From Natrononativus amylolyticus (GTDB lineage: Archaea; Halobacteriota; Halobacteria; Halobacteriales; Natrialbaceae), in assembly GCF_024362525.1 (NCBI RefSeq), contig NZ_CP101458.1, forward strand, positions 372,001 through 436,000: a stretch of DNA of 64,000 bases, written 5' to 3'. Position numbers and translations under genes: made by a program. This document shows positions 14,520 to 50,823 of the stretch, one piece after another. Within the stretch, counting starts at the first letter, position 1. Each line of letters begins with the position of its first letter. The notes beneath the pieces are model-generated. The model was not told the origin of the DNA, made no database searches, and worked only from the letters and a program-made list of their open reading frames with translations.

Positions 14520-16574
14520 ATGGCTGTGGATGTCGTTGATGAAGGACCGATCACCTTCACAGTAGACGACGCAACCATTCGCGTTCAGGATCGTATCGAA
14601 GGTCAAACCTTCCAGTTAGCTGCGTCCGGTGACCTATCACCCCAACCGGCTCTTACCGATCTGTTCGTATTTCCCGTCGATAGTGCAATCTCGATTACTA
14701 CGACGGAACTCGAACTCGATCCTCACTTTGATGCGTATATACGGGATGAAGATGGGACGCATCTCGGTGGATTCGAGATAGGTGAACAATCATTTTCCGT
14801 CGGAACGTACTTTATCGAATTGACTGGAAGGATGAAGATCTACCTTCGAATAAGTGATGCTGGATTTTCTGCAACGTGTTCGGACCTCTTCTCGAACGAT
14901 GCTTCACTCAATATCTCGTTCGATTCAGCGAGCACAGTTTCGGTCGGTGCCCGGTCCCTTCATACTCGTCCGCAAGATACCATTACAACCTCGAATGAAC
15001 CGGACGCGATGATGGAAGCGATCTCCTATCTTGGTTCCTCGATAAAAGAGTTCTCTTGTGAACGATCGTGGCCGTCAATTCGGGGACATCCCCCACTGAT
15101 TGAACTGAGCGATTCTCTCGAGATCCCTCCAGCACTTACCAAGCCCGAAACAGGCATAACGATCAGCGTACCTCCGACGCGTGCCGATATTTACCGAATC
15201 GCTCCGCTCGTTTTCTATCTCGGTGCTGACGTAGAACCCGGCGACCGAGCCGCAATTCACTTAGACAACGGATACACGGAACCGTTACGGTCATCACATC
15301 TCTCACTGGATGAATCAGTTGACCGTCTTCTCGACACATGTATACTTATGGACTCGTTAGTACGAATCGGCGGGTACTACACGTGTTCGCGCAGAGAATA
15401 TCGGGAACTTGCGCCCGAATTACCGTTCTATCCACCGAACCTGTACAGTGAATCTCTATCCGATCAACTCATCGAGTATCTAGAGGTCCCGTTTTCAGTT
15501 ATCGAACCGTATCTACCTGAAAGACCACTAACGACTGTTCTCCACTCTGGCGAATCCCACGTCAAATTCCTTCCGTACTTGTGCAACAAGCTTGCTAAGA
15601 TCCGCGTTGAGGAAGTAGAGACCGCAACGGAACTAGATACATCTCGAACACAACCGACGGCGACTCCTCACGGACACGTACCCGGTTCACCGGAATCCGC
15701 ATATCTCGTTCACGACTCGTTTATAAATTCCCTCTCAAACCGGCCCACGACCCAAGACCGGGCCAGATTCACGTTCATAATCTCTGAAAGAGGTAGGAGA
15801 GGGTTTCAGGAGTCCATCTCCGAACATCCGATGTACGTTACTGCAGACGAGGCTGTTTCGACGATCATAGACAAACCGACAAAACGAGAACTCAAACGAG
15901 TACTTACCGACGAGAGCGACTTCTTACATTGCGATTTAGCAGTCGTTGATGATGGGTTTGAATGCGTAGATGGTGTACTCCCGGTAGACGAAATCGAGAC
16001 CGTAAGCACCAAATTCATCTCGGTCAGTGGGTGTAACGAACCTGATATCGGCGTTTCGCTCGTTGAAAAAGGTGCGGTTGCCGGGATCTGCACAGCGAGT
16101 TCGCCGTCGTCTCTCGAACTGATTCGACTATCTGGTTATCTGAGACGAGGGTTCTCCCCTGCGATGAGTGCCCAGCTCGCAGAATTATCTGCGAGCACTT
16201 CGTATCGATTTTTCGGCGATCCGACGTATACAGTAGTGGCTAACGGATCCGGGCATCTTCCAGTCTGTATGAACGTCACCTCGACCGGACTTGATACTCA
16301 TTCGGTCGACATCTATTATCAACCTACCGACCGATACTGGATCGGGAGCACCTCTACCGTTTACGATGAGTCCTCTGCCGGATCCTATCAGCTATGTGGT
16401 TCTACGATCGAACAACCGCACTCCTACACTACACCTGAAATCGTCTCGTGTCTCGAGGACGATGATTTCGTTGTCAGACTCAATGGGAGTACGTACCACG
16501 GCGAAGTGCCTCCCTCGGAATCGCTAGTCCGAAACTCCGCTAGAAGTGTGCTCTCTGATTCCCAAAAACAATAA
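14520..16574 (+). CDS. large CHAT-like (caspase-like) protein, low GC
   Basis: 684 residues from the ATG at 14520. I chose this start because MAVDVVDEGPITFTVDD aligns with the start of the paralogue at 46947; the open frame extends further upstream but that part lacks similarity. The shared core includes RGHPPLIELSDSLEIPP and RIAPLVFYLGADV. The C-terminal third has the layout of a CHAT domain: FLHCDLAVVDDGFECVDGVL (His470), then a strand and SVSGCNEPDIGVSLVEKGAVAGI (Cys505). The usual GH after the first strand is missing, so catalysis is doubtful. CHAT domains are caspase-clan proteases found in signalling and defence. GC is much lower than in the paralogue (about 42-50% in lines I counted), suggesting transfer. 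Confidence 0.7.
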   Translation: MAVDVVDEGPITFTVDDATIRVQDRIEGQTFQLAASGDLSPQPALTDLFVFPVDSAISITTTELELDPHFDAYIRDEDGTHLGGFEIGEQSFSVGTYFIELTGRMKIYLRISDAGFSATCSDLFSNDASLNISFDSASTVSVGARSLHTRPQDTITTSNEPDAMMEAISYLGSSIKEFSCERSWPSIRGHPPLIELSDSLEIPPALTKPETGITISVPPTRADIYRIAPLVFYLGADVEPGDRAAIHLDNGYTEPLRSSHLSLDESVDRLLDTCILMDSLVRIGGYYTCSRREYRELAPELPFYPPNLYSESLSDQLIEYLEVPFSVIEPYLPERPLTTVLHSGESHVKFLPYLCNKLAKIRVEEVETATELDTSRTQPTATPHGHVPGSPESAYLVHDSFINSLSNRPTTQDRARFTFIISERGRRGFQESISEHPMYVTADEAVSTIIDKPTKRELKRVLTDESDFLHCDLAVVDDGFECVDGVLPVDEIETVSTKFISVSGCNEPDIGVSLVEKGAVAGICTASSPSSLELIRLSGYLRRGFSPAMSAQLAELSASTSYRFFGDPTYTVVANGSGHLPVCMNVTSTGLDTHSVDIYYQPTDRYWIGSTSTVYDESSAGSYQLCGSTIEQPHSYTTPEIVSCLEDDDFVVRLNGSTYHGEVPPSESLVRNSARSVLSDSQKQ

Positions 16575-26927: not shown

Positions 26928-27491
26928 TCAACTCTTGAGTTCGAAGAACTCCGCACGCAGGTCGTCGTCGTCGAGCTGTTCGGTCGCGTCGGAGACGTTC
27001 TCGTACAGGGCGTCGAGTTGCTTTTTGAGCTGCTGGTACTCCGCGTGGTCTTCGAGCTCCGAACGGGTCTTCTTCGCCTCGAGCGTCCCCTTCTTCGAGG
27101 CGAGTGCGAGCAGCTCCTGCATCTGGTCGTCGTACTCCGACCGACGAAGCAGCGTCTCGACGGTCTCGAGGAGGCGGTCGGCCTCCGAAACCGGCTTGAC
27201 GAGGTAGGTGTCGTACCCCAACTCGAGAATATCGAAGCTCGGCTCGACCGCAGAGACCATCGCGACGCGACAGTCGTATCCCCGCTCGCGGACCGTCTCG
27301 AGAACCTCGTCGCCGGAGATTCCCGGCATCCGACGGTCGAGCAACACGACGTCGATTGAATCGTCCATCAGTTCGAGCGCCTGCTCTCCGTCGTACGCGG
27401 TTTTTACAGTGTACTCCTCGGAAAGCCACTGGGCGTGGGCATCGGCGATAGCTGGCTCGTCGTCGACGACGAGAACGGTCGGATCTGACAT
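26928..27491 (-). CDS. HalX-domain response regulator
   Basis: 187 residues from MSDPTVLVVDDEP at 27491. The receiver domain has the acidic pocket VVDDEP, phospho-acceptor Asp52 in VLLDRRMPG, Ser/Ala and the conserved Lys in TYLVKPVSEAD. The C-terminal 65 residues (YDDQMQELLALASKKGTLEAKK) are a HalX domain, a haloarchaea-specific helical module common on such regulators. No DNA-binding domain is visible, so it likely works through protein contacts. Directly upstream of the KaiC-like gene. Confidence 0.93.
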   Translation of the reverse strand: MSDPTVLVVDDEPAIADAHAQWLSEEYTVKTAYDGEQALELMDDSIDVVLLDRRMPGISGDEVLETVRERGYDCRVAMVSAVEPSFDILELGYDTYLVKPVSEADRLLETVETLLRRSEYDDQMQELLALASKKGTLEAKKTRSELEDHAEYQQLKKQLDALYENVSDATEQLDDDDLRAEFFELKS

Positions 27492-44250: not shown

Positions 44251-44820
44251 CTACCGAGTCAAGAGCGCGGCGGCCGCGACGATGCCGACCGCGGCGATCA
44301 GAAAGCCGACGAAACCGGCGAGCCCGCCGATGACGATCGCCATCGCCGCCGCGATCGCCAGCGCGACGAGCCCCAGCGCGACGACGCCGAGTACGGCCGG
44401 ATCGACGCCCGCGACGGCGTCGTTCGACGGGCTCGTTCGTTCGGGCGTCGGTTGCTGGGGCTCCGCCAGGCGCTCGTCGACCTCGACTTTCGGGCCGCCC
44501 GGCAGCACCGTCACCCGGATTCGCACCGTCGACGCCCCGTACGCCGTCGAAACCTCGAGTCGGCCCCGGACCTCCCGCGGAACGTCGCCGACGGTGATCG
44601 GGACGTACGTCTTCTCGTCGGGTTCGACGTAGTAGTTCGGCTGTTCGATTCTGGCCGCTCGCTCCAGGTCGTCGGTGAGCCGACAGTGGACGTGAGCGGG
44701 GCCGCCGTGGCTCTCGAGGACGAGTTCGAACGAGTCGCGCACCTCGAGGTCGGTGACGTCGGCCTCGATGGCGCCGGTCTCGTTGCGGTTGACCGCGACG
44801 GTGACTTCCTCCCCCGGCAC
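44251..44820 (-). CDS. membrane-anchored beta-domain protein (DUF7524-like)
   Basis: 189 residues. The first 120 are a soluble beta-rich domain (EVTVAVNRNETGAIEADVTDLEV; STVRIRVTVLPGGPKVEVD), followed by a Pro/Ser linker and two hydrophobic C-terminal helices (VLGVVALGLVALAIAAAMAIVIGG; VGFLIAAVGIVAAAALL). The beta domain should therefore be anchored by its C-terminus. The layout is that of the haloarchaeal DUF7524 family. No catalytic residues are obvious. The Trm112 gene lies 7 bases upstream on the same strand. Confidence 0.7.
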   Translation of the reverse strand: MPGEEVTVAVNRNETGAIEADVTDLEVRDSFELVLESHGGPAHVHCRLTDDLERAARIEQPNYYVEPDEKTYVPITVGDVPREVRGRLEVSTAYGASTVRIRVTVLPGGPKVEVDERLAEPQQPTPERTSPSNDAVAGVDPAVLGVVALGLVALAIAAAMAIVIGGLAGFVGFLIAAVGIVAAAALLTR

Positions 44821-45280: not shown

Positions 45281-46885
45281 ATGAACGAACGGGCAGCCGA
45301 CCGTGTCGGCCGACTCCGCGAAACGACGGCCGAACTGAACGCCTGCGAATCGATCCAGGCGGTCTACGATCTCGCGGTCGCCGCCGCCGAGCGTCTCATC
45401 GAGTTCGACGCCAGCATCCTCTGTACGGTCGACGACGGCGTGTTCGTCCCACGAGCGGTAAACGTCCAGCAACTCGTTCCCAGCGACCCGCTCTCTGTCG
45501 AGGACGGCATCGCCGGCCTCACCGTTCAAAACGACCGGAGCTACGTGATCGACGACCTCGAGACGGAACCCGATGCACGGGCCACGAGCGGGGGGTACCG
45601 ATCGACGCTGTCGATCCCGCTGGCTGGTACCGGCCAGTCCGAACCCCGTGGTGTCTTTCAGTGCCACGCCACGGAGCCGGACGCCTTCTCGGAGGCCGAC
45701 CGGGAGTTCGGCCAACTGCTCGTCGCGATGCTCTCGAGTACGCTCCGTCGACTCCGGTCGGAGGCGGCGCTGAACGAGGAGCGTGACCAGTTCATCGCCC
45801 TCTTCGAGAACGTTCCCGATCCAGCGGTGCAGTACCGGATAACCGACGGCACCCATCGTATCGACGCGGCCAACTCGGCGTTCATCCGCGTGTTCGGCTA
45901 CGACGTGGATCGGATGGCCGACGACGCACTCGAGGACGTCCTGTTCTCCGAACCCAGCGATAGCGAGCGGCCCGAACTCGCCACGACCGACGACGTGAGT
46001 CGGCGAACCGACGTCGAGGTCGTTCGCGAAACGGCGACCGGCCCCCGTCCGTTCTTGCTCCGAAACGTCCCGGTCGCGACCGGCGACGGCACGACCCGCG
46101 GCTATCTCATCTACACCGATCTCACCGCACTGAAACAACGAGAGCGCGAACTCGAGCGCAAGAACGAGCGCCTCGATCAGTTCGCCGGAATCGTTGCACA
46201 CGACCTGCGAAACCCGCTGAACGTCGCGAACGGCTATCTCGAACTCATTCGCACGGAGTACCCCGACGAACCCGAGACGCTGGCCGAAGTCGCAGATGCA
46301 CACGAGCGGATGGAACGGCTCATCGACGACCTCCTCGTGCTGGCCCGCAATTCGGACGACGGCAGCCCTGACACCCTTCGTGTACCACTCGAGACGATCG
46401 CTCGGCAAGCGTGGCAGGGCGTCGAGACGACGGCGGCGACGCTCGACGTCAGCGTCGACGGGCGGATCGAGGCCGATCCCGACCGTCTGCGTCGGCTGTT
46501 CGAGAACCTGTTTCGGAACAGTCTCGAACACGGATCGGTGTCCGAGGGCGGACCCATCGACGACCACGGCCGCGAGAGCGAGAGTGGTAGTCGATCGCCT
46601 CTTTCGATTCGTGTGCTGGCGATTGCGGACGGGTTCGCCGTCGAAGACGACGGACCGGGGATCCCGACCGAACACCGGGACGACGTGTTCGACTCCGGCT
46701 ACACCGTTTCGAACGGCTCGACCGGTCTCGGCCTCGCGATCGTCCGCCAAATCGCCGACGGACACGGCTGGCAGGTCGAACTCACGGAGGAGACGAGTGG
46801 CGGTGCGCGATTCGAGTTCACGAACGTCGAGGCGACGTGGACGACCGCGACGCCGACACGGCGGCCTCGCGGAGGGTCACAATGA
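45281..46885 (+). CDS. GAF-PAS sensor histidine kinase
   Basis: 534 residues from MNERAADRVG at 45281; the frame stays open upstream but has no similarity there. Residues 15-160 form a GAF domain (IQAVYDLAVAAAERLIEFDASILC), residues 168-290 a PAS domain (FIALFENVPDPAVQYRI), then the dimerisation H-box with His307 in FAGIVAHDLRNPLN, then the ATPase domain (LFENLFRNSLEHG; EDDGPGIPTEH). There is no membrane span. The CHAT-like gene follows by 61 bases with its own strong GGAGG site, so the two probably share a transcript. Likely, the kinase controls or reports on the CHAT-like protein. Confidence 0.92.
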   Translation: MNERAADRVGRLRETTAELNACESIQAVYDLAVAAAERLIEFDASILCTVDDGVFVPRAVNVQQLVPSDPLSVEDGIAGLTVQNDRSYVIDDLETEPDARATSGGYRSTLSIPLAGTGQSEPRGVFQCHATEPDAFSEADREFGQLLVAMLSSTLRRLRSEAALNEERDQFIALFENVPDPAVQYRITDGTHRIDAANSAFIRVFGYDVDRMADDALEDVLFSEPSDSERPELATTDDVSRRTDVEVVRETATGPRPFLLRNVPVATGDGTTRGYLIYTDLTALKQRERELERKNERLDQFAGIVAHDLRNPLNVANGYLELIRTEYPDEPETLAEVADAHERMERLIDDLLVLARNSDDGSPDTLRVPLETIARQAWQGVETTAATLDVSVDGRIEADPDRLRRLFENLFRNSLEHGSVSEGGPIDDHGRESESGSRSPLSIRVLAIADGFAVEDDGPGIPTEHRDDVFDSGYTVSNGSTGLGLAIVRQIADGHGWQVELTEETSGGARFEFTNVEATWTTATPTRRPRGGSQ

Positions 46886-46946
46886 CGGCGAGACGGCGGT
46901 GGCGGTGTCCGGACGGCGACGAGCCGAGAGACGGAGGAGGTCTCTG

Positions 46947-49040
46947 ATGGAGGCCGACCTCGTCGAGTACGAACTGTCCGGGACGACACTTTACGTCTCC
47001 GACGTCGGCGGAACCTCCATCAGCTTCGATCTCACCGGCTGGGATCGACTGTCAGACCCCCTGCCGTTCGACGAGCCGATCGACACGAGGGTCGTCGGCC
47101 GGCTCTCGAAGCTCCGCTACGATCTCGAGAACGTGGTAACCGTCCGCCGCCTCGACGGCGACATCCCCACACCGGATGGAACCGGCTCCCGAACGAGTCA
47201 CGAGATCGTCACCGAATCCGACACGACACTCTCGCTTCCCGGCGGCTCGTACTTTCTCCAGATCGAATCCGACATCCTCGTTCGCGTTCGGTTCGATGGC
47301 GAGGCAACGATCCGGAATCAGGCCACTGGCTCGCTCTCGATCTCGTTTCCTCACCCCACCGCAGTGACGTTCGGGTTCACGACCACGATGGGCTATCCCC
47401 GCCACGAGCTAACGATCGAACCGACGACCGGGTCGTTCGCCACCGCGCTCTCACACCTCCCGGCGACGATCCGGACGACCAGCCCGGATCGGGTCCACCG
47501 TCCGTACCGCGGGCATCCCCCGCTGCTCGAGATCGGCAGCGAGACGGCGATTCCCGACGCCGTTCGGGAACAACGGACGGACACCGGCATCGAGTTCGTC
47601 GTCCCGGACCGGTGGGAGTCGCTGTTCACCGTCGCGCCACTCGCCTATTACCTCGGCGCGACGGTCCGCACGGCCGACGGGGCGGACTCGACACCGTTGC
47701 TTCGCGCACCTGCCGTCGACTTCGCCCACGAGTTTTCGAACCTGCCGGCGTTCCGGGCAGAGACGACCGCGTTCCTCGCACGGACGTTCTTTTTCGACAT
47801 GCTGGCGTGTTGTTTCGGCCCCGACGATCCGACCCTCCTCGAGCACGACCGACTCGAGGCCGACGGCATCGACCTGACAGACTGTGCGGACGCGTCGATC
47901 GCCGAACGGGTCCTGACCTACCACGAGCTTCCGTCGAGCCTGGTCGACGAACTGGTTCCGGAATGGCCCTACCGAATGACGGTTCCCCCGTCCCCGGAGT
48001 ACGCCCCGACGGTTCCACACCTGCTCTGTGATCTGGCCGTCATCGACGCCGCCACCGGCAGGAACGAGACGAACGGGACCGACCGCGGCGCGTCCGCTCA
48101 GACGCAGGGAGGGGCGCTCGCGACGCTCGGCCGAACGAAACCGATCCGCGGTGCGGTCGGAACGCCTGGCGTCGACAGCCAGTTTTCGGCGCTTCCGGCC
48201 GCGTACGCGAACCGGCTGACCTACCTCGAGCGCGAGCGGGAGGCGGTGTCGGCTGCCGTCGTCTTCGCCGGCCAGGCGTCCGACGCTGATCGAACGCGAA
48301 TCGTCGACAGCTACCGCCGACGCGGCCGACGGCTGTCGCTCACCGTCGACCGATACGACGATCCGTCTCGAGACGAACTCGCCGACCTGCTCGAGAACGG
48401 CGTGGAGCTCCTCCACTACGTCGGCGACTCTGACGGGACAGGACTCGTGTGTGCCGACGGCGTTCTCGAGCCAGAGAGCCTCACGAGGAGTCGCACCCAG
48501 CTGGCCCAGCTCGACGCCCCGAACACCCACGATGTCGGAGCCGAACTCGTCGAACTCGGGAGCGTCGCGACCGTGAGCCGGGGGGACGCGTACCGATCGG
48601 CCGCCAGTGACGACGCGGTGACCGGGACGACCGGAACGACGATCGGTGAACTGGTACTGTACGGCCAGAGCCTCGCGACGGCACACGCTCTCGAGGCGAT
48701 CTGTGCCGACTCCGGCGTGTACGAACAGGGAGACAGCCGGGTGATCGGCGACGGTACGCACCGGTTTCTGTCGAAGTGGCGACCGAGTCACATCTGCGTA
48801 CTGACGCCCAAAGACCGGGGCGTTCGGAGCACGATTCTCTCGTTCCCCGTCGATCCGGTCGGTTCCCACTGGGTTCCCGTCTGGCACCCGGAGAAACGCC
48901 TGATGCCGGCGACGATCCGTTTCGACGTCGAGCCCGACGAACTCGCCGAGTACGTCTCGAGCAGCACCGTGCCGATCTTCTACGACGGAACGCTCTACTG
49001 GATGGAAGACCACGGCCGCCTCCTCTATCCGGTCACGTAG
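46947..49040 (+). CDS. CHAT-like (caspase-like) protein, paralogue of 14520-16574
   Basis: 697 residues from the ATG at 46947, preceded by GGAGGAGG at 46932-46939. The same blocks as in the first copy occur: RGHPPLLEIGSETAIPD and TVAPLAYYLGATV. The C-terminal CHAT-like part shows LLHYVGDSDGTGLVCADGVL (His490) with GD where active members have GH, and AQLDAPNTHDVGAELVELG, where Pro525 replaces the expected Cys. It is therefore likely a catalytically dead caspase-clan domain used as a scaffold or sensor. The N-terminal two-thirds are unique beta-rich sequence. GC is high (about 68% in one counted line), unlike the first copy. Cotranscribed with a histidine kinase. Confidence 0.7.
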   Translation: MEADLVEYELSGTTLYVSDVGGTSISFDLTGWDRLSDPLPFDEPIDTRVVGRLSKLRYDLENVVTVRRLDGDIPTPDGTGSRTSHEIVTESDTTLSLPGGSYFLQIESDILVRVRFDGEATIRNQATGSLSISFPHPTAVTFGFTTTMGYPRHELTIEPTTGSFATALSHLPATIRTTSPDRVHRPYRGHPPLLEIGSETAIPDAVREQRTDTGIEFVVPDRWESLFTVAPLAYYLGATVRTADGADSTPLLRAPAVDFAHEFSNLPAFRAETTAFLARTFFFDMLACCFGPDDPTLLEHDRLEADGIDLTDCADASIAERVLTYHELPSSLVDELVPEWPYRMTVPPSPEYAPTVPHLLCDLAVIDAATGRNETNGTDRGASAQTQGGALATLGRTKPIRGAVGTPGVDSQFSALPAAYANRLTYLEREREAVSAAVVFAGQASDADRTRIVDSYRRRGRRLSLTVDRYDDPSRDELADLLENGVELLHYVGDSDGTGLVCADGVLEPESLTRSRTQLAQLDAPNTHDVGAELVELGSVATVSRGDAYRSAASDDAVTGTTGTTIGELVLYGQSLATAHALEAICADSGVYEQGDSRVIGDGTHRFLSKWRPSHICVLTPKDRGVRSTILSFPVDPVGSHWVPVWHPEKRLMPATIRFDVEPDELAEYVSSSTVPIFYDGTLYWMEDHGRLLYPVT

Positions 49041-49100: not shown

Positions 49101-50507
49101 CTACTCGTACGGGTTCTCGAGGACGACCGTCTCCTCGCGGCCGGGACCGACGCCGACGGCGTAGATCGGCGCCTCGAGTTCGTCTGCGACGTACTCGAGG
49201 TAGGTGCGGGCGTTCTCGGGGATCGCCTCGTACCCCTCGCTCGCGACGTCGGCCCAGTCGACCTCGGGCCAGCCGTCGAACGTCCGGAAGGTTGCCTCAC
49301 ACCGCCCCCACTTCTCGGTGGTTGGCGGCATGGTGAGCAGCTCCTCGCCCTCGTACTCGTAGGCGTGGCCGACCTTCACCTCGTCCAGACCCGCGAGGAC
49401 GTCGACGTGGTTGATCGCGAGGCCGGTGAAGCCGCTCGCGCGCGCGGCGTGGCGCAGCATCGGCATGTCGAGCCAGCCGACCCGGCGCGGGCGGCCGGTG
49501 ACGGTGCCGTACTCGCCGCCCTCGTCGCGAATGTAGGTGGCGAGGACCTCCTCATCGGCGGGCGCGTTCCCGTCATAGTCGGGCGTCTGGCCTTCGACGC
49601 CGCCGAGTTCCGTCGGGAGCGGACCCGTCCCGACCCGCGAGAGGTACGCCTTCACGATCCCGATGACCTCCCCCTGGCCCACGACGGTCGGACCGAGACC
49701 GGTGCCGACGGTCGCGCCACCCGCCGTCGGGTTCGAGGAGGTCACATAGGGGTAGATCCCGTGGTCGATGTCGATCGAGGTCCCCTGGGCGCCCTCGAGC
49801 ATCACGTTCTCGCCCGCGTCGATCCGCTCCTGGAGGAAGGTGCCGCAGTCGACGGTCATCCCCTCCGCGGCGAGGCGCTCGCCGTACTCGCGGTAGGTCT
49901 CGTAGAGGTGGTCGACGTCGAACCCCTCGCCCACCTCCGCGCCGTCGGACTCGTCCGACGAGCCTCCGTTCGCGTCGCTCACGGAAACCCCGAAGACGTC
50001 CTCCGCGAGGGCCCGCTTCTGGGGGACGACGTACTCGAGGCGCTCGCGCAGGACCTCGGGCTCGAGGAGGTCGCCGATGCGGATGCCCCGGCGGCCCATC
50101 TTGTCCTCGTAGGTCGGCCCGATGCCGCGCTTCGTGGTGCCCGCCGCGAGGTCCTGCTTCTCGTCCTCCTCGATCCCGTCGAGCACGCGGTGGTACGGGA
50201 GGATGACGTGGGCGCGCTCTGCGACGCGGACGTCGGGCTCGAGGCCGCGCTCGCGGAGTTTGTCGATCTCAGAAAAGAGCGTCTCGGGGTTGACGACACA
50301 GCCGTTGCCGAGGACGCCGATCTTCCCCCGAACCGCGCCGGAGGGGACGAGCGACAGTTTGTACTTCTCGCCGTCGTGGACGACGGTGTGTCCGGCGTTG
50401 TCGCCGCCCTGGTAGCGCGCGACGACGTCGGCCGCGTCGCCGTAGAGGTCGACGACGCCGCCCTTACCTTCGTCGCCGAGTTGAGACCCGACGATTGTGA
50501 CGGTCAT
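49101..50507 (-). CDS. purA: adenylosuccinate synthetase
   Basis: 468 residues from MTVTIVGSQLGDEGKGG at 50507, the standard N-terminus with the P-loop GDEGKG. QGGDNAGHTVV, TTKRGIGPTYEDK and GAQGTSIDIDHGIYPYVTSSNP are all conserved. It joins aspartate to IMP using GTP in AMP synthesis. A Gly/Ser/Asp-rich insert (about 16 residues) near residue 200 is typical of halophile enzymes. Its C-terminus faces the CHAT-like gene (60-base gap). Confidence 0.95.
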   Translation of the reverse strand: MTVTIVGSQLGDEGKGGVVDLYGDAADVVARYQGGDNAGHTVVHDGEKYKLSLVPSGAVRGKIGVLGNGCVVNPETLFSEIDKLRERGLEPDVRVAERAHVILPYHRVLDGIEEDEKQDLAAGTTKRGIGPTYEDKMGRRGIRIGDLLEPEVLRERLEYVVPQKRALAEDVFGVSVSDANGGSSDESDGAEVGEGFDVDHLYETYREYGERLAAEGMTVDCGTFLQERIDAGENVMLEGAQGTSIDIDHGIYPYVTSSNPTAGGATVGTGLGPTVVGQGEVIGIVKAYLSRVGTGPLPTELGGVEGQTPDYDGNAPADEEVLATYIRDEGGEYGTVTGRPRRVGWLDMPMLRHAARASGFTGLAINHVDVLAGLDEVKVGHAYEYEGEELLTMPPTTEKWGRCEATFRTFDGWPEVDWADVASEGYEAIPENARTYLEYVADELEAPIYAVGVGPGREETVVLENPYE

Positions 50508-50823
50508 AACAGGGCCGGGTTCATGCCGGGCCGATAAACCGATTACGGTCTGGCGGAGTCGGAAACCGACTATGTATCCACGTGTGTGCACATCTGAATC
50601 CGTACGTTCGGTCGCATGTGTCCGAACGTGGGTAGTTGCGCCGGTGACGTCGGTCGCGCGCTGTCGCTCAGTTCGTTCGACGGCCTCGAGCGGGGGTCGG
50701 GGCGATACCCCTTCTGCAATCCGAAGCGTTAACTACTGGCACGAACTACCCCCGAGTTGACAGTGGTTCCGTCACCGCCCATGAGTAACTTTTAAAGGGT
50801 GGAAAGACAAGTTAACAAATGCC
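50508..50823. other. divergent intergenic region of purA and HTH gene
   Basis: 316 bases. The only element I can define is the TATA box of the small HTH gene (50790-50796). The rest carries no gene I can support; the region must also hold the purA promoter. Confidence 0.4.
50790..50796 (+). promoter_or_regulatory. TATA box of the small HTH gene
   Basis: TTTTAAA ends 28 bases before the ATG at 50824, correct spacing for a haloarchaeal promoter with almost no leader. A short overlapping ATG-CCA-TGA (50819-50827) lies directly in front of the start. Confidence 0.55.

Follow-up and report, generated by a model that had tools for sequence, protein, structure and literature searches.

The window analysed here, a stretch of 64,000 nucleotides from the haloarchaeon Natrononativus amylolyticus, carries a gene for a histidine kinase (P0001) followed by a gene for a CHAT-like protein (P0002), and the spacing given in the preliminary description, a GAF-PAS kinase ending 61 nt before the CHAT-like gene, agrees with both the open reading frame coordinates and the Pfam domains (Table 1). 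The open frame of the kinase extends upstream to 44753, so that its start is putative, and GAF_2, PAS_8, HisKA and HATPase_c are all matched above the Pfam cut-offs. With HisKA, HATPase_c and the H-box histidine present, P0001 is a soluble two-component-type histidine kinase. The H-box motif HDLRNPL is kept in all 42 linked kinases used for comparison, and the looser pattern, HD followed by L or I and then by P three or so residues on, in 64/64 kinases of the kinase tree described below.

Table 1. Features of the kinase/pseudo-CHAT locus, with positions in the window
Feature	Position	Strand	Remark or basis
DUF7524 gene, fixed on the upstream side of clade A pairs	44254..44820	-	
Histidine kinase P0001, 534 aa	45281..46885	+	stop TGA 46883-46885
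Domain borders of P0001			GAF residues 23-154; PAS about 171-284; HisKA 298-357; HATPase_c 399-514
Phospho-acceptor His307, H-box AHDLRNPL	46199..46201	+	sequence
Intergenic gap kinase-partner, 61 nt	46886..46946	+	74% G+C
Shine-Dalgarno (SD) site GGAGGAGG of P0002	46933..46940	+	6 nt 5' of ATG
Pseudo-CHAT protein P0002, 697 aa	46947..49040	+	ATG at 46947, stop at 49040
Predicted caspase/CHAT-fold part of P0002, residues about 339-610	47961..48776	+	AlphaFold2 model, structure matches
Asp494 in place of catalytic His (HYVGD vs HYIGH)	48426..48428	+	family alignment
Asp523-Ala-Pro525 in place of Asn-Ala-Cys; Cys to Pro, Asn to Asp	48513..48521	+	family alignment
Tyr694-Pro695, C-terminal YP tail of the kinase-linked clade	49026..49031	+	
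Adenylosuccinate synthetase (purA), fixed on the downstream side of clade A pairs	49101..50591	-	

As had been noted earlier, no response regulator gene adjoins the pair: the nearest receiver domain lies 17.8 kb off, at window positions 27159-27476, and a receiver near the pair is likewise absent in 3/3 genomes, comprising the window's genome and those of the closest relatives' pairs (G022, G004). The whole genome yields 11 receiver matches versus 32 HATPase_c matches, and P0002 itself has no Pfam match to the receiver domain PF00072. Orphan histidine kinases are common, many haloarchaeal sensor kinases having no adjacent response regulator, and the lack of one does not remove P0001 from the family.

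The identity of P0002 is less apparent from domain databases. It has no significant match in Pfam or NCBIfam; the CHAT model PF12770 does not match it, and matches 2/14 family members weakly (best E 0.0073). No model of PADLOC-DB matches it and its filing as a known defence system was dropped, an absence which does not exclude defence. Full-length homology and a common tree nevertheless place P0002 in a haloarchaeal CHAT-like family of about 690 aa, which is present in 54/61 genomes and gives seven matches in its own genome, corresponding to six genes (two matches share one gene). Most family members contain the motifs HYIGHCE and LNACGS, of which HYIGH and LNACGS, judging by the family alignment and by comparison with CHAT proteins, presumably form the CHAT-type His-Cys dyad. 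The same alignment reads HYVGDSD and LDAPNT in P0002, which is thus without both presumed catalytic residues, His and Cys. The window contains one more member of the family, a highly divergent one at 14520-16574 on the plus strand (L006), with the motifs HCDLAVV and VSGCNE, the His being gone and the Cys kept, and with no kinase within 1 kb.

The fold was assigned by comparing an AlphaFold2 model of P0002 (pLDDT 78.3, pTM 0.77) by Foldseek, with a best E of 7e-5, and by VIA-align. In this model P0002 has a caspase/CHAT fold, matching gingipain R (Z 15.8, 233 residues, 2.9 Å), the transmembrane anti-sigma factor DdvA (Z 14.9, 213 residues, 3.7 Å), SAVED-CHAT (Z 14.8, 168 residues, 2.7 Å), separase (Z 14.6, 205 residues, 4.3 Å) and TPR-CHAT (Z 9.7-12.2). 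The model of a dyad-intact member, L053 (pLDDT 81.9, pTM 0.78), also matches caspase-fold proteins, for example SAVED-CHAT (Z 17.9, 171 residues, 2.4 Å), while the sequences of solved structures, when searched with a profile of the intact family, yielded nine chance matches, to MHC class II chains, and nothing useful. The designation 'CHAT-like' in the preliminary description therefore holds for the predicted fold and fails for the His-Cys dyad, the loss of which had gone unseen. The dyad-intact family shares with P0002 the full-length architecture, about 30% identity and the predicted fold, but differs in keeping His and Cys, in having no kinase neighbour and in being without the YP tail.

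Kinase linkage, defined as a kinase within 1.5 kb and on the same strand as a family member, was compared with the state of the dyad in 144 distinct members in which both motif places were readable, duplicates having been removed. A kinase was found near 0/96 dyad-intact members and, by the strict rule, near 41/48 dyad-lost members, in a total that is biased because many pseudo members were reached through the kinase search, and for which Fisher p-values overstate the association, the members being related to one another. On inspection six further dyad-lost members sit in kinase clusters (L130 twice, L134, L214/L165, L167, L227), the rule having missed tandem copies (L130, L167, L227) and kinase frames overlapping the partner (L130, L134, L214/L165), such that L006 is the single dyad-lost member without a kinase (1/48). 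Among kinase-linked members the Cys is lost in all and the His in all but one. The same division appears in a protein-driven subset free of the kinase-search bias (the best 80 of 287 relatives, at 79 loci, with 78 distinct members), where 7/7 dyad-lost and 0/71 intact members have a kinase. A profile of the pseudo-CHATs was also run against 392 genomes of the order, as another search starting from the protein, with the best two candidates per genome scored. Here seven places of at least 682 bits occurred in genomes not taken from the kinase search, and 7/7 adjoin a kinase, although two of them duplicate genes already known (L049, L050), to which three others are closely related. Kinase-CHAT fusion proteins were absent among the open reading frames of the loci examined. 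At one locus (L130, in G010) three tandem pseudo-CHAT genes are followed by one kinase.

The preliminary description had named conservation of the pair as a check, its absence counting against the proposed link, and the adjacency is indeed kept across genera, as against about 30 kinases in the whole genome by HATPase_c matches, and is for this reason more than chance. In a quick tree of 80 partner rows, the 46 pseudo rows, which leave out L006, lie on one side of a branch with an SH-aLRT of 100, and the kinase-linked pseudo-CHATs are by this tree one clade with an apparent single origin. Of the 64 rows of the kinase tree, 23 belong to clade A, the group that includes the window's kinase, which has a support of 100; the second linked set, termed clade B, comprises 19 rows and is not one clade; between A and B lie, with weaker support, 20 solo relatives of P0001 having no partner beside them, and two distant kinases complete the tree. 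The solo kinases imply that the kinase can manage without a linked partner. Kinase and partner distances are strongly correlated, with a Mantel r of 0.89 for 42 pairs, 0.87 after thinning to 35 pairs, 0.93 within clade A and 0.75 within clade B, none of 2000 permutations being as high in any test, though species relatedness is still contained in these distances. Likewise, in six genomes with both groups (G000, G010, G077, G078, G142, G143) A kinases adjoin A partners and B kinases adjoin B partners. Kinase and partner make up an ancient module and co-evolve. The window's own genome holds a second pair, of clade B (L138), on the 241-kb contig C3 with a gap of 32 nt.

The arrangement of the two genes has several signs of an operon. 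Among 35 distinct loci with the kinase 5' of the partner, 14 overlap by 4 nt (ATGA-type) and the others have gaps of -1 to 179 nt, a range which includes that of the window. In the window no A/T-rich promoter-like stretch is seen on inspection of the gap; around the pair an Rfam search gave no match, a scan with bacterial models, uninformative for archaea, gave no promoter-like site, and a similarly uninformative bacterial scan gave 2 terminator-like sites versus 1.9 expected by chance. An SD-like site precedes the partner in 17/35 loci with the kinase upstream, in 0/6 with the kinase downstream and in 1/96 solo intact members. In haloarchaea such sites are typical of internal cistrons, and so the strong GGAGG of P0002, correctly noted earlier as its own, speaks for and not against a shared transcript. 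Upstream of some clade B partners (L131, L166, L167), at about 30 nt, a GTATA-like stretch occurs, and these partners may have their own promoter and be separately transcribed.

Loss of the dyad has not been followed by decay. In 8/9 close pairs the pseudo-CHAT dN/dS is 0.14-0.30, similar to that of the kinase, with about 0.6 in the pair L219/L220, and by these ratios the pseudo-CHATs are evidently under purifying selection. Within the clade G31-W32-D33 (GWD) is conserved at 100, 96 and 93%, R52 at 98%, P137 at 98%, R279 at 100%, D523 at 91% (plus 3/46 Glu) and Y694-P695 at 91 and 98%. Two positions ahead of the lost Cys, 45/46 pseudo rows carry an acid (Asp or Glu), as against Asn in 93/93 intact rows, the latter leaving out three divergent intact paralogues (L140-L142), and a Pro third from the C-terminal end occurs in 45/47 pseudo versus 2/96 intact members. 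The GWD motif, the YP tail and this acid are pseudo-clade features which the intact relatives lack.

Functional coupling of the kinase and the CHAT-like gene is supported by these sequence comparisons, because the pair is conserved, an ATGA-type overlap or SD site is frequent and the two trees agree. In this respect the preliminary proposal of a kinase feeding a caspase-like effector survives; the cutting effector does not. The observations suggest that a former protease has been recruited as a non-cutting signalling partner, and we consider that the kinase and a dedicated pseudoenzyme probably constitute one signalling module, with the partner as its non-catalytic third component. The pseudo-CHAT would derive from the dyad-intact haloarchaeal CHAT-like family and would bind its own kinase, candidate surfaces being the GWD motif, the YP tail and the ex-active-site pocket; it would then set or pass on kinase activity without cutting proteins, so that the two-component pathway would have a third component, and any final response regulator would be encoded elsewhere. 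Such a partner would provide a concrete, testable signalling route for kinases without an adjacent regulator. The family is also a clear example of a caspase fold from which a clade lacking the dyad arose a single time, in association with a new partner gene.

Other relations between the two proteins can be envisaged. One is that the pseudo-CHAT, controlled by the kinase, forms complexes with paralogues that keep the dyad and holds them in check, much as inactive caspase homologues in animals restrain active ones. The window's genome does contain three such paralogues (L140-L142) and the family is near-universal in relatives, but intact members are frequent whether or not a pseudo form is present, such that co-occurrence says little, and most intact genes lie at an unlinked locus; this arrangement seems unlikely. 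A second is that the output of the pathway is the pseudo-CHAT, which would take the phosphoryl group from the kinase at its acidic former active site (Asp523, with Asp or Glu at 494) and so replace a receiver. In the P0002 model Asp494 comes just after one strand and a later strand ends with Asp523, and the almost invariant acid before the lost Cys, an Asp or Glu at the His position in 31/46 pseudo rows, the lack of receivers near the pair and their low number in the genome would all accord with such a function. However, in 15/46 pseudo rows the His position lacks an acid, and we know of no precedent for a pseudo-CHAT as phosphoryl acceptor, and we regard this possibility as rather unlikely. 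If true, a dead caspase-fold protein, phosphorylated where acids at neighbouring strand ends took the place of the protease site, would have become a response regulator, and the phosphorylated pseudo-CHAT would be the output of the pathway.

It is quite improbable that the adjacency is no more than conserved synteny without functional coupling. The clade A locus is fixed, with DUF7524 in 17/17 and purA in 15/17 loci, and part of its adjacency is consequently vertical inheritance. Against this, clade B pairs are maintained in different surroundings, including the separate 241-kb contig of the window's genome, the pair persists where the kinase lies downstream of the partner (L132, L135, L162, L163, L168), and the two trees are coupled. 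Finally, activation of a caspase-like protease effector by the kinase, as first proposed, is rejected as extremely improbable: despite the predicted fold and the existence of dyad-intact relatives, P0002 has other residues in place of both His and Cys, and none of the kinase-linked members retains the Cys.

Known systems resemble the pair only in part. SAVED-CHAT and TPR-CHAT/Csx29 are proteases of defence systems, and CspC of C. difficile belongs to another protease family than P0002. The SAVED-CHAT filament (8tl0) and TPR-CHAT/Csx29 (Craspase) have the caspase-like fold in common with the P0002 model, whereas P0002 is without the dyad and without a PADLOC match. DdvA (8rw5, 8rot; Z 14.9 and 14.8 to P0002) has a caspase-like part within a signalling regulator, but is bacterial, membrane-bound and, by its entry title, acts on a sigma factor. 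In the accessible part of PMC6636752, CspC is a dead protease serving as a signalling node in spore germination, a pseudoprotease in signalling as proposed for P0002, but with no kinase partner. The available text of an archaeal two-component census (PMC5847659) contains haloarchaeal PAS/GAF kinases, and the words CHAT and caspase are absent from it. No description of a kinase/pseudo-CHAT pair was found in the literature searched, which included the accessible parts of PMC5847659, PMC6944256 and PMC6636752 and lay mostly outside subscription papers.

The genomic surroundings of the different groups have their own regularities. Dyad-intact members lie mostly between genes for serine hydroxymethyltransferase (SHMT; 68/71) and a TbsP-like transcription regulator (66/71), for example at L072. 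A radical-SAM-like gene adjoins 7/18 clade B pairs (L182, L163, L135 and others), and a replication-factor-C-like (RFC-like) AAA gene adjoins 13/14 solo kinase relatives (L143-L148, L183 and others).
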